From Aquisphaera giovannonii (GTDB taxonomy: Bacteria; Planctomycetota; Planctomycetia; Isosphaerales; Isosphaeraceae): 64,000 nucleotides of DNA. This document shows, in pieces, positions 50,367 through 60,783 of the stretch (its first letter is position 1; every line of letters begins with the position of its first letter). Below the pieces are notes generated by a model. It was not told where the DNA came from, did not search any database, and saw only the letters and a list, made by a program, of their open reading frames with translations. The stretch is taken from the NCBI RefSeq assembly GCF_008087625.1, contig NZ_CP042997.1, forward strand, positions 7,254,001 to 7,318,000. Direction: 5' to 3'. A program made the position numbers and the translations under genes.

Positions 50367-53300
50367 TCAGTGGGCGTTGGAAAGGCTCGCGGGGTCCGCG
50401 GGGGCGATCGGCCGCAGCTCGATGTCGCGGAGGTCCATGACGGCGTTGCGCGGGGCGGACGCGGCGCGGGCCTCGACCCGGCACCGGCCCGGCGGGAGGG
50501 CGAGCTCGCCGATCCGGACGCGTTCGAACCGGTCCCAGGAGCCCGTGCCGGTCATCTGGTGGAGGACTTGCTGACGCCCGAGGTCGATCTCCAGGACGTC
50601 GCCGGCTGACGAATCCGCGCACGCGGCGTCGAGCCAGACGTCGTAGCGGCCCGGGCGGGCGACCTCGATGGTCCAGGCGGCGCGGTCGTTGGCCGCCATC
50701 CAGAAGCCGAGATTGCTGTGGGATTGTTCGAAAACCAGTCGGTCGCCGTAGATCTCCGCGTCCTCGGCGGCGAGGCGGATGGCCCCGTCCTTTGACGGGC
50801 GGACGGTCCTCGGGTGGTTGCCGGCGAAGTTCTTGGGGGGCGGGCTCGTGCCCTGGAGCAGGGCGAACAGGTCCGACAGGTCCTTCGGGCTGAGGTCCTT
50901 CTCCAGGCCCTCGGGCATGAGCGACTGCCCGGAGGCGATGACCTCGTCGATGTCCTTGCGCAGGAAGACGTCCTCCTTGCCCTCCTGGCGCCGGAGGGTC
51001 ACGGTCGTGGCCGATTCGCTGGCGATGAGCCCGGAGGCGATGCGACCGTCGGACGTGCCGACGGTGAAGCTCGCATAGCGGGACTCGAAGGCCCGGTTCG
51101 GGTCGAGGATGGCCGTGAGCAGCGCCTCGGGCGACTTCTCGTTCAGCGCGGCCAGGTTCGGGCCGACCTCATGGCCGACGTCGCCCAGCTTGTGGCAGGA
51201 CGCGCAGACGCGGCGGAAGACGACCATGCCGGCGACCGGGTCCCCCTTGGCCTCGCAGGCCGGCCGGTAGGCGTCGAGGACGCTCTGCCGCGACCTGGCG
51301 AGCTCCGCATAGATCGCCTGCGCCCGCCGCCGCGTCTCCGGGTCGCGGCTGGCCATCAGCGCGTTGCGATGCACGGCGGAGACCTCGCCGGCGGCGATGC
51401 GCTTCGCCTCCACGGCGTCGAGCAGGCACTTCGTCCAGGCCTTGCGGCTCAGGAGCAGGTCCACGACCGAATTCCGCACGGCCGGGGCGTAGGATCGCCA
51501 GCCCTCCAGGAGCTGTTCGGGACAGCCGGGCATGGAGGAGAGGCCGAGCGCCAGGGCGGCCGCCTGCGAGACCGCCACCGGGTATCGCGGGGAGAGCAAG
51601 GAGGCGAGGAGGTCCCTGTCCGAAGGGCGGGTCGCGGCGCTGAAGCGGAGCAGGCCGATCGCCAGGATGCGGTCGGACTCGGCGGTGCTGTCGGCCAGCA
51701 CGAGGACGCGGGCGGCGTCGATGATCCGCGCCAGCACGGACTGGCGTGCCGGCTCCGGGGGCTGCGACGAGCGGCTCGACGCCTCGACGAGCGTGCGGAT
51801 CGCGGCGAGCTGCCAGGAGGCGTACCCCGCCCCCGGCTTCACCGGCTTCGCCACGGCCCGGAAGACGTCGTCCATCTTCTCCTTGGAGAGGGTCGACCCC
51901 GCGATCGTCGCCAGGGCCTCCACGAGCTCGCGCGAGGGCGCCTCGCCCTGCTCGCCGAATAGCTCCACGAGCAATGTCCCCACGTGGGGCAGCGACGAGC
52001 TGAGGACCGCGGCGCGGATCCAGGGATCGCCGGAATCTCGCCGTGCGATCCTCGCCAACGCCCTGGCGGCCCGCTCGTCCTTCCAGTTCCCGAGGGCCAA
52101 CGCCACCTGGAGACGGACCGAGGCGTCGGGGTGGTCCGCCAGGTGCAGGGCCGCGTCGGCGACCCGCGGCGACCGCGGGATGAGGGACTCGGACGCCTTG
52201 ATCGCGTTCCGGAGCAGGCCCGGATGCCGGGCCGTCTCGAGGACCTCCCCGGCCGTCCCCTCGTCCAGCCCCCCGAGCAGCGCGAGGGCCCAGAGGGACT
52301 GGGCCTGGCCGAGCGGGCTGGTCGAGGACCTCGCCGTCGCCCGCAGCGGCCCCATGGCCGACGGGTCCTTGCGATGCAGGAGCAGGCGCTCGGCGGTGTC
52401 ACGCCGCCAGCCGCTCGGGCTCTCCAGCGCCTTCACGAGGCCATCGACGTCCAGCCGGTCCAGCCGCTCGATCCGCCGCGGCCGCCGGTCCACCGGGAAG
52501 ACCCGGTAGATGCGGCCCTCCTCCGCGCCGGCGCGGAGGTCGAGCGACTTCTGCGTCTCGCGGGGGATCCACTCGGGATGCTCGATGACGGCGCGATACA
52601 TGTCCGCGACCCAGAGCGCCCCGTCGGGCCCGGTCCTGAGCTGGGTCGGGCGGAACCAGTTGTCGGAGGAGGCGAGGAACTCCCGATGCTCCTCGCCCGG
52701 CGCCCGGGAGCCCCGGAACGTCGGGCCGTCCGGCGTGACGATCATCCGATGGACGACGTTATGCACGGGCTCGCTCGTGAACAGCTGCGTCCGTCCCGGG
52801 AGGACCGAATCGAAGAGGTCGTCCCGGTAGGGCGTTGGGGTGTTCGCCGACGTGACGTGGTTGGCCTGATCCGGGTCGTTGAAGCGGGCGAGCGTCCGGC
52901 TGATCGGGAAGAGGCGGGTGTCGGGCTCCAGGACGTGCCGCGGGTCGGGCGAGGCGTAGAACGGGTTGCGCCTGAGGTCCGCTTCCGAGAGGACGTAATG
53001 CCAGGCCCACGTCTGGTTGGAGCCTCCGAACCAGTCCCCCCAGTCGTCGCGGTGGCGGCCGTACTGGGTCTGGCCGCTCTCGGTCTCGAACTCGCCGGTG
53101 TCGGGACGGAATCGGAAGTCGCGGCCCTGGATGTTCACGACCTTGCCGGTCTTCAGCGACTTGACGTTCCCGCCGCTGTCCCCGTTGGCCCCGTAGACCC
53201 AGCCGTCCATCCCCATCTCGAAGCCGTTGATCCGGTGCTGGGGATTGCCCGGGTTGAAGCCCGTGAAGAGGACCTCGCGATGGTCGGCCCGGCTGTCCCC

Positions 53301-55157
53301 GTCGCGGTCCTCGGCGTAGAAGATGTCGGGGGCGGCGGCCACGAGGATGCCGTCTCGCCAGGGCATCAGCCCGCTCGGGATCGAGAGGCCCTCCAGGAAC
53401 GTCGTCGCCCTGTCGTAGCGGCCGTCGCCGTCGGCGTCCTCCAGCACGCGGACGACACCGCCCGGCTTCCCCTCGCCGTCGGCGCCCTGCGGGTAATCCC
53501 CCATCTCGACGACCCAGAGGCGGCCGTCCGCGCCCCAGTCCATCGCGATCGGGTCCTTCACCAGGGGCTCGCTCGCGACGAGCTCGACCGCGAAGCCGGG
53601 CGCGACGGTCAGGGAGTTCAGCGCCGCCTTGGGCGACCGGGGGCGGGGCGGCAGGTCCTTCAGGAGGTCATTGAAGGAGCGGCGATCGACGTGATCCGGG
53701 AGCCCGGACGTGTCCTCGTTCTGCCACCAGAGCTCGCGCGAATGGACGAAGAATCCGTTGTTCGTCCCCGCGCGCTCGATCATGGGCAGCGCGTGCGGCT
53801 CGCCGGCCTTGCCCGACATGACCCGCCGCGTCCAGCCGCCGGTCGACGGATCGTACAGGAAGATCCCGTATTCGCGGTCGTTGGAGAAGACGCGGTCGGC
53901 GTGGCCGTCCTCGTCGAGGTCGATGTAGCGGAGGCCGGGCTGCCTCGCCTGGGGGTCGGCCGGGGCCGCCTGGTCGACGGGCGGGAACGCGGGCGTCGGC
54001 TTCCCCGGCTTCCAGGTCCCGGACGACGGATCCCAGATGCGTGTCTCGGCCCCGGCGACGTCCATGTAGCCGTCCCCATTCAGGTCGGCGATGCGGACCT
54101 GATTGTCCGAGCCGTCCGGCGCCCGCAGCGGCCGGCCGCCGAGCATGTAACGGTCGATCCGCTCCTGGGCGTCGCGGAACGAGAGGAACTTCACCTTCCT
54201 GCCGTGCTTACGGGTCGCGTGGTCGATCAGCTCCACGACCTGATCGTTGCGGATCCAGCCGTAGGGATGGAAGACCAGGCAGTAGACCCCCTGCTTCAGC
54301 ACGGTCAGGTCGATCGCGGCCTTCATGTCCTCCACGGTCTCGGGCCTCGCCGCCTCGCGGAGGTTCTTCCCCTGCCAATCATCGGGCACGGTGCACGGGA
54401 ACTCCCAGCACAGGTTGCCGATCACGTAGGGATAGGGGTAGTCCTCGATCGTGTTGACGAACGATGGGGAGGGCAGGTACTTGCGGAATCGCTCGGCGCC
54501 TCGGCCATCGAGCACCAGGTCGCGGGGGAGCGTCGCGTCGTTCGGGGTGAAGAGGTTGATGACGGAGGAGTCGATCGTGAGGAAATGCCCCCTCGGGCTC
54601 GTCTTGTTGAACAGCTCCCCATAGAACCGGGGGCTCGGGGAGTTCATCGAGTCGCAGCAGGGCATCCGGAAGGCGACGGGGCGATTCCCGGGCACGGCAT
54701 TCAGCAGGTCCACGCAGTCGTGATAATTGCGCCTCGCGGCGGCGAGGTCCCCCTTCTGGAGCAGCGGGCACGGATGCCCCGTCGTGTGGACCTCGAGGGA
54801 CACGCCCTCCTCGAGCCATCGCCGGAGGCGGGGGTCGCCGGGAGGCACCTGGCAGGTCATGATGCTCATCGGCGAGCGGCCCTCGGCCTGCTTCAGGCGG
54901 TCGAGGACGGGCCGGAGGAAGGCCTCGTAGGCCCCGGGCTCCCTCATGTCGTCGATGCCCAGGATGATCACCGCCTCCACGCCGGGCTCGCCGACCCATT
55001 GAGGCGTCGTGAGCCGGGGGAAGTGGCGCCCGGGGGCGTAGGGATCGACGTGGCGTAGGTAGTCGAGGCGGTCGATCTCCGCCGGGGCCGAGAGGACGGC
55101 ATCGTGCCGGATGAGGCCGAGCCCGAGGAGGACAGGCACGAGCGCGAGGAGCCGCAT
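50367..55157 (-). CDS. Secreted fusion: polysaccharide deacetylase, FG-GAP, PVC-type dehydrogenase propeller, HEAT repeats, cytochrome c and carbohydrate-binding module
   Basis: A 1596-residue exported protein. The signal peptide covers about residues 1-24. Residues 55-330 are a NodB-like polysaccharide deacetylase, with the metal triad in GIDDM (Asp69/70) and EVHTTGH (His124, His128) and an Arg in FRMPCC. About 350-480 is FG-GAP-like (NGDGYMDVAGAE, DLDEDGHADRV). About 510-950 is the PVC membrane-bound dehydrogenase propeller (GFAVELVASEPLVKDPIAM, DNWFRPTQLRTGPDGALWV). HEAT repeats follow to about 1300. A haem c site, VCASCHKLG, is at 1318-1322, and the last 120 residues look like a CBM (PGRYDVWLDAAC). 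The dehydrogenase-HEAT-cytochrome part is a known planctomycete theme; the deacetylase at the front is unusual. The role may be sensing or oxidising a deacetylated glycan. ATG 55157 was chosen by the signal peptide. Confidence 0.88.
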   Translation of the reverse strand: MRLLALVPVLLGLGLIRHDAVLSAPAEIDRLDYLRHVDPYAPGRHFPRLTTPQWVGEPGVEAVIILGIDDMREPGAYEAFLRPVLDRLKQAEGRSPMSIMTCQVPPGDPRLRRWLEEGVSLEVHTTGHPCPLLQKGDLAAARRNYHDCVDLLNAVPGNRPVAFRMPCCDSMNSPSPRFYGELFNKTSPRGHFLTIDSSVINLFTPNDATLPRDLVLDGRGAERFRKYLPSPSFVNTIEDYPYPYVIGNLCWEFPCTVPDDWQGKNLREAARPETVEDMKAAIDLTVLKQGVYCLVFHPYGWIRNDQVVELIDHATRKHGRKVKFLSFRDAQERIDRYMLGGRPLRAPDGSDNQVRIADLNGDGYMDVAGAETRIWDPSSGTWKPGKPTPAFPPVDQAAPADPQARQPGLRYIDLDEDGHADRVFSNDREYGIFLYDPSTGGWTRRVMSGKAGEPHALPMIERAGTNNGFFVHSRELWWQNEDTSGLPDHVDRRSFNDLLKDLPPRPRSPKAALNSLTVAPGFAVELVASEPLVKDPIAMDWGADGRLWVVEMGDYPQGADGEGKPGGVVRVLEDADGDGRYDRATTFLEGLSIPSGLMPWRDGILVAAAPDIFYAEDRDGDSRADHREVLFTGFNPGNPQHRINGFEMGMDGWVYGANGDSGGNVKSLKTGKVVNIQGRDFRFRPDTGEFETESGQTQYGRHRDDWGDWFGGSNQTWAWHYVLSEADLRRNPFYASPDPRHVLEPDTRLFPISRTLARFNDPDQANHVTSANTPTPYRDDLFDSVLPGRTQLFTSEPVHNVVHRMIVTPDGPTFRGSRAPGEEHREFLASSDNWFRPTQLRTGPDGALWVADMYRAVIEHPEWIPRETQKSLDLRAGAEEGRIYRVFPVDRRPRRIERLDRLDVDGLVKALESPSGWRRDTAERLLLHRKDPSAMGPLRATARSSTSPLGQAQSLWALALLGGLDEGTAGEVLETARHPGLLRNAIKASESLIPRSPRVADAALHLADHPDASVRLQVALALGNWKDERAARALARIARRDSGDPWIRAAVLSSSLPHVGTLLVELFGEQGEAPSRELVEALATIAGSTLSKEKMDDVFRAVAKPVKPGAGYASWQLAAIRTLVEASSRSSQPPEPARQSVLARIIDAARVLVLADSTAESDRILAIGLLRFSAATRPSDRDLLASLLSPRYPVAVSQAAALALGLSSMPGCPEQLLEGWRSYAPAVRNSVVDLLLSRKAWTKCLLDAVEAKRIAAGEVSAVHRNALMASRDPETRRRAQAIYAELARSRQSVLDAYRPACEAKGDPVAGMVVFRRVCASCHKLGDVGHEVGPNLAALNEKSPEALLTAILDPNRAFESRYASFTVGTSDGRIASGLIASESATTVTLRRQEGKEDVFLRKDIDEVIASGQSLMPEGLEKDLSPKDLSDLFALLQGTSPPPKNFAGNHPRTVRPSKDGAIRLAAEDAEIYGDRLVFEQSHSNLGFWMAANDRAAWTIEVARPGRYDVWLDAACADSSAGDVLEIDLGRQQVLHQMTGTGSWDRFERVRIGELALPPGRCRVEARAASAPRNAVMDLRDIELRPIAPADPASLSNAH

Positions 55158-55308
55158 TGTCCGGGACCTTCTTTGGAATTGCCGGCGTGTCGATCGCCAG
55201 CCTTCAGCGTGTCCGCTTTCCGCCTTGTTGACAAGGGGCCAGTGACGTACGATCTGCACCTGATGTCCAGGATTGCGGCGTAGGTCCCGTCTAACGATTT
55301 GCCGACCC

Positions 55309-57295: not shown

Positions 57296-57645
57296 GGGTG
57301 CAACTCCAAAAAGGTGCTGCTCCAATCTAGCATGAGAATCTCGGCAAAGACGTCGGGAGAGTGAAAATTATCTGTCTGGGTAAAATGTAGCGGCAGGGCA
57401 AAGCCGGCTGTCCGGCGCAGGCTCGACTTGCCGGGCTAACGAGTCGCGACGGCCGACTTGACCTTCACGACTCATGGGCACGCGGCTACCATCCGGCCGA
57501 ATGATTGTCCCAAGCCCGCGGCCGCGACGATGGAATGCGCAAGGAGCCGGGGGAACGTTATGCCTTTCGCGGCTAAGCGAGGGCCCGGAAGGGCGGTCGT
57601 CCGCCGCGGTGGCATTAGGCCCGAGTGCATGGAGGTCTCGAGCCG
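57296..57645. other. Divergent intergenic region, AT-rich in the middle
   Basis: About 350 bases between the coiled-coil gene and the large secreted-protein gene. The 57330-57400 part is clearly AT-richer; TAAAAT (57381-57386) and, on the other strand, GATAAT resemble -10 boxes, but neither has a convincing -35 box. No other element was seen. Confidence 0.45.
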
Positions 57646-60600
57646 ATGAAAGTGCGCGAGTGTCTTTGCATCCTGCTGACGGCGTTCGCCCTGGGATGGA
57701 GCGCCGCCCCGCGGGCACTCGCTGACGGCGACGACGCCGGGAAGGCCGAGGGAGTGGCCGCGGCCCCGCGGAAGCCGGCCTCCTTCCACGAGGATTTCGA
57801 GGGCCCGCAAATCTCGTGGGAACGCGAGCACACGGACACCACGATCAACCTCATCGCGCAGGATCGCTCCGACCGCGCCGCGCACGACGGGAATCGATCG
57901 GAGAGGTTCCAGTTCGAGGCGGAGCCGGGGGGCCAGTTCTTCGTCAGCTACTCGGTGCCCAAGGCTCCGATGAGCGATGCGCTCTCCGCCGCCGTCTACG
58001 TCAGGGCGAATCGCGTCGGCGTCCAGATCTACGCGCGCGTCGTCCTCCCGGCGGACATCGACCCCGACACGAAATCGCCCTCGTTCCTGCTGATCCCCGG
58101 CACGATCTACGACCGGGTCGATCGATGGCAGCGGCTGGAACTGATCGGCATGATGGCGTCCGTGGAGCGGCAGGCGCGGGTGCTTCGGGCCTCCTCGCGG
58201 CGTCCCGTGAGCGTGGAGAAGGCCTACATCGACCGGGTGGTGGTCAACCTGCTGGGCGGCTCGGGGGCCTCGGAGGTCTTCCTGGACGACCTCTCGATCG
58301 CGCCCGTCCCGGACGACGTCCTGGCCTCCTGGAAGGCGTCGGCAGTCCCCAGCCCGGGGCCGGCGGCCGCGGCGAGGCCTCGCCGGGCCGCCGGCCCGGA
58401 GGGCACGGGCCGGGCCGTCGTGCGCCTGGACAATAACCGCATGCGACGGATGGGCGAGGACGGGAAGTACCGCGACTGGTTCCCGACCGCCATCGATGCG
58501 CCGGGGGCGGACGTCGCGCAGTTGCGGCTGCACGGGCTGGACGTGCTGGTGGACGATCGGGGGACCGACGTCGAGAGGCTGAAGGCCGCGATCGAGCGCG
58601 GCTTCCTGCTGATGCCGAGGCTCGAATCGATCGAACCGGGCGCCGCGGCGGACGAGGTGGACAGGTATCCGTTCAAGGAGTCGGTGGCGGCCTGGCAGGT
58701 CGGCGGCAAGCTCGGGGCGAAGCGGGACGCGAAGGCCCGGGAGGAGGAGCTGGCCCGAATCCGGCAGCTCGTCTCCGCGATGAGGCAACTGCCGCCCGGC
58801 ACATCCGGGATCACGACCGGCGAGGTCGCCGGGGACCTGCCCTTCTACGCGAGGGCCCCCGGCAATCTCGACATGGTGGGGATCCGCCCGTACCTCTGGG
58901 CCTCGGCCCAGAGCCCGAAGGAGGGGATGGAGTTCCTGAATCAGCGGCGGCGCCTCGCGGCCCGGGCCAACCCCGGCGGCCTCTTCTGGGCCTGGCTGCC
59001 CGTCTCCGCCCCGCAGGCCGTCGTGGAGAACATCTGGGGGGAGGACCCGCCGCCGGCCTGGGGCCGCCCGCGGATCACCCCGGAGCAGCTCCGCCTCATG
59101 ACCTACATGGCGCTCTCGTGCGGCTATCGCGGCATCGGCTACCTCGGCGACGCCGACCTCTGCCGCGAGGCGGGCAAGGTGCTCCTGATCGAGCTGGCGT
59201 TCCTGAACATGGAGATCGACATCTGCGAGTCCACCCTGGCGGAGGGCTCGGATCCGATCAAGAACTACGGCGCCTTCGACCCCGATCCGCCGGACCTGCC
59301 TCCGCCCGGGATGCCGCTGGGGACCCGGGTCAAGCCGAAGAAGGAATTCGGCCCCAAGCCCGGCCTCCTGGCGTCCGCGATCAAGGACAACCGCCGGGGT
59401 ACCCTGCTCCTGCTGGCGGACTATGCCAGTAACGCCGAGTTCGAGCCTCCCCAGATGGCGGCTCGGAACCTGATCGTCCGCCCCATGCTCCGCGAGGGCG
59501 CCCAGGCCTACCAGATCTCCCCGGGGGGCGTGAAGCACCTCCCCAGGGAGCGTTCCTTCGGCGGGACGCAGCTGAGCATCGACGAGTTCGACACGACCGC
59601 CTTGATCCTGTGCACGACGGACCAGGGGCTCCGGGACCGCGTGGAGGCCGCCGTGGCGAAGGTCCGGCCGCTCGCCGTCTCCCTCGCGATCGAGCAGGCC
59701 GAATTCCTGCTGAATCAGACCACCGACATCGTCGGCCGCCTGAACGCGGACGGCCACCAGCTGATCACGCCCGACCTGATCCAGAAGCGCAAGGAACGGG
59801 GGATCACGACCCGGCCGACCGACGAGCGCGACCTCCTGGCGAAGTCCCGGGCGCTGATCCAGTCGGCGCGGGAAGCCCAGGAGCGGCTCGATTTCGCGCT
59901 GGCCTGGGACGAGGCCCGACGCGCCCTGCGGCCGCTCCGGACGCTCCGGAACGGCTACTGGACCCTGGCGCAGGCCGAGCTCGCGGACGCGATCAAGGGC
60001 AACCTCCCGCGGCCGAAGGACGCAGACACCGCCCCCATCCCGCTCCTGACCAAGCCGGTCTGCTGCGCCCCCGCCATCGGATTCGACACCCTGCCCGAGA
60101 TGTACATCTGGAAGGACTGGATCGCCGGGCAGCCGGGCTATCGGTTCGGCCCCAATCGCGTCCCCAGCGGCTCCTTCGACGACCCGAAGCGGATGGCGGA
60201 AGACGGCTGGGTCAACATGGACTACCAGCTCGAGGGGCTCGTCGCGAAGATGGCCACGGTGCCGCGCGAAGGGGGCAAGCCCGGGCGCGTCCTCCGCATG
60301 GCCGTGGATCCGCTCCAGAAGGAAGACCTGGACAAGAACGTCCCCTTCCTCGACTTCCCGATCGCGGCGGTCCGCTCGCCCGCGGTGGAGGTCGACGCCC
60401 GGAACCTGATCCGAATCTCGGTCCTCGTCAAGCGGCCGATCGCCAGCCTGCCCGGCATGGGAGGCATCATCGTCCGCGACTCGATCGGCGGCGAGCAGCT
60501 CCAGTTCCGAACTTCGGACCCCATCCCCTCGTGGTCGCGGGTCGTCATCTACCGGAAGGCGCCCGCCGAGGGCAAGCTCACGGTCACCCTGGGCCTGGCC

Positions 60601-60783
60601 GGCTACGGGGAGGCCTTCTTCGACGACCTGCGCGTCGAGCTCGTGGAGGAGACGTCCGGTCGCGAGGGCCCTGCCGACGACCTGGCCGGGGATCGCCCGG
60701 CCCGCCGCGCAGGTCCGCCGCGTGCCCCGGAAACCTCCCCCCCCTCATCCGCCGCGACCTCCCCGACCGGCCGTCGCGGTTGA
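57646..60783 (+). CDS. Large secreted protein with carbohydrate-binding-like and glycoside-hydrolase-like regions
   Basis: A 1045-residue exported protein; the signal peptide ends near residue 26 (GWSAAPRALA). Residues about 40-220 look like a galactose-binding/CBM-type beta-sandwich (FHEDFEGPQISWERE, EVFLDDLSIAPV). The middle (about 240-560) resembles the barrel of glycoside hydrolases of the GH42/beta-galactosidase kind, with phrases such as DMVGIRPYLWASAQSPKEG, GLFWAWLPVSAPQ and SCGYRGIGYLGDADL; catalytic glutamates could not be assigned. The C-terminal part is helical then beta-rich, with a second sandwich-like domain (QLQFRTSDPIPSWSR). A polysaccharide-degrading or -binding role is a guess. 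ATG 57646 has GGAGG upstream. Confidence 0.78.
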   Translation: MKVRECLCILLTAFALGWSAAPRALADGDDAGKAEGVAAAPRKPASFHEDFEGPQISWEREHTDTTINLIAQDRSDRAAHDGNRSERFQFEAEPGGQFFVSYSVPKAPMSDALSAAVYVRANRVGVQIYARVVLPADIDPDTKSPSFLLIPGTIYDRVDRWQRLELIGMMASVERQARVLRASSRRPVSVEKAYIDRVVVNLLGGSGASEVFLDDLSIAPVPDDVLASWKASAVPSPGPAAAARPRRAAGPEGTGRAVVRLDNNRMRRMGEDGKYRDWFPTAIDAPGADVAQLRLHGLDVLVDDRGTDVERLKAAIERGFLLMPRLESIEPGAAADEVDRYPFKESVAAWQVGGKLGAKRDAKAREEELARIRQLVSAMRQLPPGTSGITTGEVAGDLPFYARAPGNLDMVGIRPYLWASAQSPKEGMEFLNQRRRLAARANPGGLFWAWLPVSAPQAVVENIWGEDPPPAWGRPRITPEQLRLMTYMALSCGYRGIGYLGDADLCREAGKVLLIELAFLNMEIDICESTLAEGSDPIKNYGAFDPDPPDLPPPGMPLGTRVKPKKEFGPKPGLLASAIKDNRRGTLLLLADYASNAEFEPPQMAARNLIVRPMLREGAQAYQISPGGVKHLPRERSFGGTQLSIDEFDTTALILCTTDQGLRDRVEAAVAKVRPLAVSLAIEQAEFLLNQTTDIVGRLNADGHQLITPDLIQKRKERGITTRPTDERDLLAKSRALIQSAREAQERLDFALAWDEARRALRPLRTLRNGYWTLAQAELADAIKGNLPRPKDADTAPIPLLTKPVCCAPAIGFDTLPEMYIWKDWIAGQPGYRFGPNRVPSGSFDDPKRMAEDGWVNMDYQLEGLVAKMATVPREGGKPGRVLRMAVDPLQKEDLDKNVPFLDFPIAAVRSPAVEVDARNLIRISVLVKRPIASLPGMGGIIVRDSIGGEQLQFRTSDPIPSWSRVVIYRKAPAEGKLTVTLGLAGYGEAFFDDLRVELVEETSGREGPADDLAGDRPARRAGPPRAPETSPPSSAATSPTGRRG

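Follow-up and report, generated by a model that had tools for sequence, protein, structure and literature searches.

Does a single gene of Aquisphaera giovannonii really join a polysaccharide deacetylase to a dehydrogenase-like propeller, a c-type haem and a carbohydrate-binding end, and what could such a protein do? The question is raised by a reading frame in the window, by which we mean the whole stretch of 64,000 nucleotides that was analysed. An earlier note on this DNA had proposed such a fusion, with FG-GAP and HEAT repeats as further parts, and had taken the protein to be exported.

One reading frame encodes the whole fusion

The gene, its putative ribosome-binding site and its signal peptide are located as follows:

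50367..55157, minus strand: whole fusion ORF, 1,596 amino acids (ORF reading, translation, orthologues)
55167..55172, minus strand: putative ribosome-binding site AGAAGG (read directly from the sequence)
55086..55157, minus strand: signal peptide, residues 1 to about 24 (hydrophobic N-terminus, judged by eye)

The single minus-strand frame of 1,596 codons is unbroken from the ATG at 55157 to the stop codon that ends at 50367, and the AGAAGG lies nine bases upstream of the ATG. Its domains follow each other in the order signal peptide, NodB/CE4-like deacetylase, FG-GAP remnant, DUF7133 propeller, HEAT repeats, c-haem domain and CBM6/35-like tail. The architecture given in the earlier note was thereby borne out by a domain search with profile HMMs (Pfam and NCBIfam), by family profiles and by structural models. 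Export of the protein appears probable from the hydrophobic N-terminus and the c-type haem. When the gene was divided into six slices, each had a third-position GC content of 0.92–0.97, as expected for one real gene; the last two slices had been cut out of frame, and for them the middle value was taken as the third position.

The host genome comprises 10.5 Mb in three contigs. Genes for Maf and an M28 peptidase lie upstream of the fusion gene and a BlaI/BlaR1-M56 pair lies downstream; these neighbours look unrelated to it. An all-against-all comparison of neighbouring ORFs of at least 150 amino acids from 80 loci and the window gave no family present in more than 11 loci, and no conserved operon partner that would point to the substrate of the fusion. 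Neighbour families common to the window and other loci (by position Maf and M28) reach 6 loci, which looks like local synteny.

The fusion is conserved in two phyla

A scan of the named genomes provided 265 related loci. The best 80 of the 265 by tblastn were kept, such that the sample leans to close relatives. Together with the window and 11 further loci they form, after removal of seven double-fetched loci, 92 rows, among which a few near-copies remain. Deacetylase and propeller are found in one ORF at 74 of the 92 loci, in Planctomycetota as well as in Verrucomicrobiota: 47 loci are fused with the tail, 14 are fused without it, and 13 carry the propeller within the ORF but are cut by a contig end or broken. 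A further 14 loci have no propeller in the ORF of the head and 4 were undecidable.

At a few loci (L066, L100, L058, L080) the protein is divided between adjacent ORFs. Among the 14 head ORFs that lack the propeller, the rest of the protein is the next gene in L066 and the next ORFs in L100, each on the same strand. Such splits would be in line with an assembly or sequencing artefact that joined two genes in the window. This explanation was rejected on the basis of the 74 one-ORF loci, many of which come from separate genome records, and of the nearest relative, the fusion of Aquisphaera insulae, which is 75% identical over the full length and 77% over the head; we regard it as refuted beyond any practical doubt. 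The earlier note had proposed a taxonomic survey and had named consistently split orthologues as the outcome that would speak against it. The orthologues are not consistently split, and the fusion is real, old and common to many Planctomycetes and Verrucomicrobia.

The 11 rows from Verrucomicrobiota form one clade (100/95), whose 7 complete members have no tail. In the tree, five or more label changes to be placed on well-supported branches are needed to explain the free-standing heads. This fits an origin by repeated fission, with the caveat that the tree has no root. Within the bacterial family of the host the head was found in 16 of 45 genomes. Eleven of these contain the whole fusion (8 with tail, 3 without). 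In 4 others, which belong to a single genus, the head stands free and is accompanied by FG-GAP, and in 1 it is joined to a HEAT remnant. For the phylum sample, 15 matches to the head were obtained in 14 of 148 genomes; 12 of them lie in open frames of 1,602–1,787 amino acids and the others in frames of 1,248, 1,113 and 649.

The genus with free-standing heads allows the fate of the remaining part to be followed, i.e. of propeller, HEAT repeats and haem domain, which we call the chassis. All 4 genomes keep a separate, tailed chassis gene far from the head, scoring 1,064–1,099 bits against the chassis of the window, and in a tree one of these (L238) is nested among the family propellers that are fused to NodB (98/96). 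G010, the fifth split genome, lacks a high-scoring chassis, the best match being 846 bits, and 3 of the 29 family genomes without NodB head (G017, G018, G043) keep a chassis of more than 1,050 bits. Across the family genomes the link between head and chassis is strong, yet it has exceptions. When the presence of head and of chassis in the 45 genomes was compared by a Fisher test, p was 4e-7 from a hand-made table (14/2 versus 3/26), in which chassis were counted above about 1,040 bits and the fused but divergent G003 (956 bits) entered as absent. We do not use this result as main evidence, since it is in part circular where the genes are fused, and since all four stand-alone cases come from one genus.

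The head resembles CE4 deacetylases

The deacetylase domain and its motifs lie at:

54153..54974, minus strand: NodB/CE4-like deacetylase domain, residues about 62–335 (Pfam, fold search, aligned heads)
54948..54953, minus strand: CE4 motif 1, D69-D70 (52/52 aligned rows)
54774..54788, minus strand: CE4 motif 2, H124-TTG-H128 (both His in 52/52 rows)
54267..54269, minus strand: CE4 motif 5, H297 (52/52 rows)

By analogy with CE4 enzymes we take D69-D70 to be the catalytic base and a metal ligand, H124 and H128 to be metal ligands and H297 to be the catalytic acid. All five residues as well as R164 are identical in the 52 aligned heads (window included), and D196 is kept in 47 of them. Polysacc_deac_1 (PF01522) stayed below its curated cut-off of 23.1 bits, a database threshold rather than a biochemical feature, both for the whole window protein (18.2 bits) and for the head alone (20.8 bits). 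The same profile matched 47 of the 52 aligned heads at E 0.01 or better, with a best value of 1.9e-9. As the head of the window lies under the cut-off, we call it CE4-like and make no claim to CAZy membership.

The putative polysaccharide deacetylase 3rxz was the structure nearest to the model of the head (pLDDT 91), at Z 20.8 and with an rmsd of 3.5 over 246 residues. Further neighbours were HP0310 (3qbu, Z 20.3), the allantoinase PuuE (3cl6, Z 19.3) and insect chitin deacetylases (Z 18.1–18.6), where entries within 1 Z of each other count as ties. A profile built from 16 family heads matched PdaC in the PDB at E 5.6e-6. The head thus has the fold and all catalytic and metal motifs of the CE4 deacetylases (PdaC, PgdA, chitin deacetylases, M. 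smegmatis 3rxz). It differs from them in its divergent motif contexts (IDDM, HPCP, FRMPCC), in the Pfam score of the window protein and in being joined to an oxidoreductase-like chassis.

The position of PuuE within about 1.5 Z of the top match raises the possibility that the head acts as an amidase on some small molecule other than a glycan. We consider this improbable, given that the full CE4 metal set D-H-H is invariant together with the catalytic Asp and His, that entries for polysaccharide, peptidoglycan and chitin deacetylases match similarly well, and that the protein ends in a CBM-like tail. The NodB-type deacetylase with a metal triad named in the earlier note agrees with the invariant ligands and with the CE4-type structural neighbours. 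We expect an active metal site and predict that the head, with its NodB fold, complete ligands and catalytic Asp and His, acts as a CE4-like deacetylase.

Only a remnant of FG-GAP follows the head:

53658..54122, minus strand: FG-GAP remnant/linker, residues 346–500 (Pfam, model)

The FG-GAP part of the earlier description held insofar as such sequence is present, but it amounts to a remnant: a single stretch at residues 348–368 under the cut-off. A full-length FG-GAP propeller in the window protein was accordingly rejected. The FG-GAP/linker region is longer in most fused orthologues of the family.

The propeller has a sugar-dehydrogenase-like fold

52491..53636, minus strand: DUF7133/TIGR02604 propeller, residues 508–889, with H641, D680 and R836 (profiles, model, alignments)

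Over these residues DUF7133 matched with E 3.9e-155 and 517 bits against a cut-off of 27, and TIGR02604 with 272.3 bits against 122.2. A search of the PDB with the sequence profile of the propeller gave nothing credible; fold search and hhalign were therefore used. The model (pLDDT 89, pTM 0.90) best matched the AA12 structure 6h7t (Z 25.1), the PQQ sugar dehydrogenase 3a9g (25.0), CcPDH (6jt5, 24.2) and sGDH (1qbi, 23.0), with PQQ sugar dehydrogenases overall at Z 22.1–25.1. Other propellers (hedgehog-interacting protein, lactonase-type and NHL domains) trailed at Z 20.6–21.5. This lead of the PQQ enzymes is real but modest, such that the fold alone is no proof of a dehydrogenase.

With hhalign the propeller profile was aligned over 287 columns with AA12-like proteins from this bacterial family (prob 94, E 1.3e-7), one of which matches CcPDH at E 4e-6. 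According to our own reading of the alignments, these AA12-like proteins appear to carry counterparts of the PQQ residues of CcPDH. In the hhalign comparison H641 falls on the catalytic His of the AA12-like profile (His144 of sGDH, His363 of CcPDH) and R836, followed by Pro, on the C-terminal PQQ-binding Arg. In a comparison with a second PQQ-type set (GSDH), H641 again meets the catalytic His, but this match is weak and spans 50 columns at prob 12.

Among the 54 rows of NodB-linked propellers, H641, D680, D705, T769, S770 and N800 are identical throughout; R836 is present in 53, the remaining row having one ambiguous letter. TrAA12 uses an Arg-Asp dyad (PMC6881810). R679 (48/54 rows) and D680 could be the counterpart of the Arg-Asx dyad at the quinone, although hhalign leaves a gap at this pair. 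The AA12 enzyme CcPDH contacts PQQ through Arg273, His539 and His560 (PMC6881789). None of these three has a counterpart at the aligned sites of the propeller (I537, T769 and E796/P797); T769 was set against the CcPDH contact by us, while hhalign places H767 there, a His in 16 of 54 rows. Because the PQQ carboxylate contacts are unmatched, we liken the propeller to AA12 and do not file it as AA12.

The catalytic-site columns are more variable in 37 propellers without NodB head. The His column holds a His in just 5 of the 37, and several of the rows printed have a His one residue before it. The NodB-linked propellers therefore look more dehydrogenase-like than the others, with PQQ as a possible cofactor. 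None of the 45 family genomes gave a match to pqqC, in a search that had no positive control, and exogenous PQQ is a possible source of the cofactor. Taken together, the two profiles above their cut-offs, the modelled fold and the aligned catalytic His favour the dehydrogenase-like propeller of the earlier note.

HEAT repeats, haem and tail

The C-terminal parts of the protein are:

51288..52460, minus strand: HEAT-repeat region, residues 900–1290 (Pfam HEAT_2 at 971–1052; extent from alignment)
50853..51245, minus strand: TIGR02603 c-type haem domain, residues 1305–1435 (NCBIfam)
51192..51206, minus strand: haem-binding CASCH, residues 1318–1322 (translation, alignment)
50916..50918, minus strand: Met1414, candidate axial haem ligand (alignment)
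50403..50810, minus strand: CBM6/CBM35-like tail, residues 1450–1585 (family profile versus PDB, aligned tails)

HEAT repeats and c-type haem were found as proposed, TIGR02603 reaching 116.2 bits against a cut-off of 68.15. All 11 fused family sequences keep the CxxCH motif (1318–1322) and Met1414. With DUF7133, TIGR02604 and TIGR02603 all above their curated cut-offs, the propeller-HEAT-haem part is indeed of a known kind.

The tail of the window alone gave no Pfam match of its own. CBM_6 matched 23 and CBM_35 19 of 44 aligned tails, and the tail family profile matched AaBgIC (E 5.2e-11, with two stretches of about 1e-3 each), an exo-beta-D-glucosaminidase (1.4e-5) and a beta-agarase (6.4e-5) in the PDB. 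The tails of these carbohydrate-active enzymes that were matched are presumably CBM6/CBM35, in agreement with a CBM-like end. A related domain ends two GH29 fucosidases of the same genome.

The missing PQQ contacts may also mean that propeller and haem are degenerate and serve as scaffold, for binding or for redox sensing. The deacetylase would then be the sole enzyme and remodel an envelope polysaccharide of the cell itself. This explanation would fit the occurrence of the fold in non-enzymatic propellers such as hedgehog-interacting protein, the fact that some structural neighbours of the head are CE4 enzymes acting on cell walls, and the strong divergence of the chassis between paralogues seen in the propeller tree. 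Six residues invariant in 54 of 54 rows are, however, more than a passive scaffold needs; moreover the haem motif is kept and the tail is like the CBMs of glycan-degrading enzymes. We thus consider degeneracy distinctly unlikely.

The chassis carries exchangeable heads

Of 24 genomes sampled from the class of the window, 23 contained DUF7133, with 13–33 matching stretches each among the matches listed. From these listed matches 40 proteins with long frames were fetched, picked for diversity and not exhaustive. At E 0.001 their heads were NodB in 3 cases, ceramidase-like in 15, ThuA in 16, GDSL in 1 and FG-GAP only in 1, while 4 had no recognised head. The tally treats 12 ThuA and 4 ceramidase members of one batch (counts only) as different proteins, and at least two ceramidase head matches lie just below the Pfam cut-off. 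Removal of acyl groups is common to the CE4, ceramidase and GDSL families, and ThuA is linked to keto-trehalose metabolism.

On well-supported branches of the propeller tree, which contains several long branches, NodB labels changed at least three times and ceramidase labels at least three times. Heads have therefore been swapped or lost more than once. The genome of the window itself contains a GDSL-headed paralogue (L154), and 7 of 12 paralogues with propeller that were read there have at most about 110 residues ahead of it, i.e. no head. At the locus L082 a free NodB gene lies about 4 kb from a ceramidase-headed chassis. The deacetylase-headed fusion is in this respect one member of a PVC toolkit in which one chassis is combined with exchangeable N-terminal hydrolase-type heads.

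Gene order was also noted outside the PVC bacteria. Ketogulonicigenium has a DUF7133-HEAT 'dehydrogenase' directly after a separate c-type cytochrome gene. In Catenovulum a chassis gene stands among genes for a TIM barrel, a 3-keto-disaccharide hydrolase, a GMC oxidoreductase and a gluconate-2-dehydrogenase-3. The window's own genome holds 30 PF06439 and 18 DUF7133 stretches; the members of one pair (5622286, 5625370) are separated by about 2 kb, and a PF06439 match lies within about 12 kb of two further DUF7133 matches. By a rough estimate this proximity of 3-keto-disaccharide hydrolase and chassis is not clearly above chance.

Discussion

The C-terminal two thirds of the fusion match the PVC-type haem-binding CxxCH proteins (TIGR02604/DUF7133-HEAT-TIGR02603) throughout, to which it adds the CE4-like head and the CBM-like tail. 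For freshwater Verrucomicrobia, PSCyt proteins that combine a c-haem domain with CBMs were reported, with a proposed role in carbohydrate metabolism (PMC5615132). They differ from the fusion by their PSCyt/PSD domain sets, and the term 'polysaccharide deacetylase' is absent from the main text of that paper. Fusions of CBMs to planctomycete-specific cytochromes thus having been reported earlier, the new part is the deacetylase head. In the literature searched we found no earlier account of a NodB-chassis fusion, of its conservation across two phyla or of the head swapping, which is no proof that none exists, and the literature surveyed offered no settled reaction for DUF7133 proteins.

A precedent for dehydrogenase, cytochrome and CBM in one secreted protein is CcPDH, which consists of AA8 cytochrome b, AA12 and CBM1 (PMC5960967). 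It has the propeller fold (Z 24.2), the catalytic His, a cytochrome and a CBM in common with the fusion. Unlike the fusion it is fungal, carries haem b and has no deacetylase, and several PQQ ligands are not shared.

The fusion may be an exported, glycan-tethered two-step PVC enzyme that deacetylates a glycan, oxidises the same glycan and lets the electrons leave through haem c, as the earlier note suggested for a polysaccharide. We prefer this reading to its rivals, tentatively and with doubt slightly the stronger. The CBM6/35-like tail would hold the protein on the carbohydrate while the CE4-like head would strip acetyl groups, exposing amino or hydroxyl groups. The propeller would oxidise the sugar thus exposed. 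Haem c, located at the distal end of the HEAT scaffold, would receive the electrons and hand them to an acceptor in the periplasm. The data themselves show the architecture, its conservation, the intact CE4 residues, the sugar-dehydrogenase-like fold, the haem site and the swapping of heads, whereas substrate, cofactor, order of the reactions and electron flow are what we infer. In favour of the two-step enzyme we counted the conservation of the fusion in two phyla, the invariant CE4 residues with the CE4-type neighbours of the head, the nearest structures of the propeller and its match to the AA12-like profile, the CcPDH precedent, the Ketogulonicigenium gene order, the tail shared with fucosidases and the co-retained chassis. 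Against it we counted the modest lead of the PQQ enzymes in the fold search, the missing PQQ contacts, pqqC in 0 of 45 genomes, the weak GSDH match, G010 and the 3 of 29 headless genomes, and also the lactose hydrolysis by Lac161_ORF7, the lack of an operon partner and the PuuE neighbour.

Lac161_ORF7 (AGW45552), obtained from a soil metagenome, is a TIGR02604-HEAT_2-cytochrome c protein for which beta-galactosidase activity was reported: after purification it released glucose from lactose with a Km of 1.8 mM (PMC5342196). A comparative genomics study of the Isosphaeraceae describes eighteen propeller proteins homologous to it (PMC5352709). This reported hydrolysis by a purified chassis homologue provides the main rival, in which the head first deacetylates the glycan and the propeller then cuts the sugar bond, either as a glycoside hydrolase or by way of an oxidised (keto) intermediate. 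The Catenovulum gene context and the common ThuA heads likewise hint at keto-sugar chemistry. The nearest structures of the propeller are, however, PQQ dehydrogenases, and Lac161_ORF7 shares propeller, HEAT_2 and c-haem with the fusion but is described with these three domains, without deacetylase head or CBM, which sets it apart from the fusion within the chassis family. BL21(DE3), the strain used for expression, carries an IPTG-inducible lacZ of its own. Contamination is therefore a concern and the Lac161_ORF7 assay deserves repetition. We judge the glycosidase unlikely, though to be taken seriously; both views could be partly right if cleavage passes through an oxidised sugar.

Returning to the two-step enzyme, a wider and rather doubtful extension of it would be a modular oxidative glycan toolkit of the PVC bacteria. 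The propeller-HEAT-haem c chassis, with swappable CE4-like, ceramidase-like, GDSL or ThuA heads and CBM or lectin modules, would couple acyl removal to oxidation of the freed sugar within one molecule, possibly by a cofactor arrangement unlike that of known PQQ enzymes. If this is true, it would provide a route to the breakdown of protected glycans beside hydrolases and lytic polysaccharide monooxygenases. The deacetylase fusion and the parallel heads narrow the chassis to sugar chemistry beside acyl removal and suggest a two-step reaction that can be tested. Should it prove true, this reaction would help to account for the attack of PVC bacteria on acetylated polysaccharides and for the abundance of their haem-linked propellers.

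Neighbouring genes and variants of the chassis

The fusion's third upstream neighbour is a 1,052-aa open reading frame (window 57625-60783) without a match in the Pfam search. Among the 80 loci plus the window that were compared, five, the window counted, have a member of this family beside the fusion.

The chassis, i.e. the propeller (DUF7133), HEAT and c-type haem part, also occurs with other domains (L-numbers are locus labels, with coordinates counted within each locus). At L230:161-4702 an isochorismatase-like and a ThuA domain lie N-terminal to the propeller. Ceramidase-headed proteins of 1,949 aa (L202:3801-9647) and 1,838 aa (L204:4108-9621) both carry the CBM-like tail as well as another weak HEAT match at the end. 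A 1,697-aa paralogue from the window's own genome is a single chain:

L154:2454-7547, GDSL acylhydrolase, DUF7133, HEAT, F5/8 type C, cupredoxin, cytochrome c

The chassis has a split counterpart on a Ketogulonicigenium vulgare plasmid, where a separate c-type cytochrome gene is directly followed by a DUF7133-HEAT 'dehydrogenase' (L240:3440-6190).

Two GH29 alpha-L-fucosidases of the window's own genome (L160:2235-4028 and L161:1939-3990) share a related tail with the fusion, and one of the two matches CBM_6. This gives a clue to the type of glycan that is bound.

A Catenovulum adriaticum plasmid contains a possible operon:

L241:1833-8979, TIM-barrel protein; DUF7133-HEAT-NPCBM-cytochrome c chassis; 3-keto-disaccharide hydrolase; GMC oxidoreductase; gluconate-2-dehydrogenase subunit 3

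This gene neighbourhood suggests keto-glycoside chemistry for the chassis.
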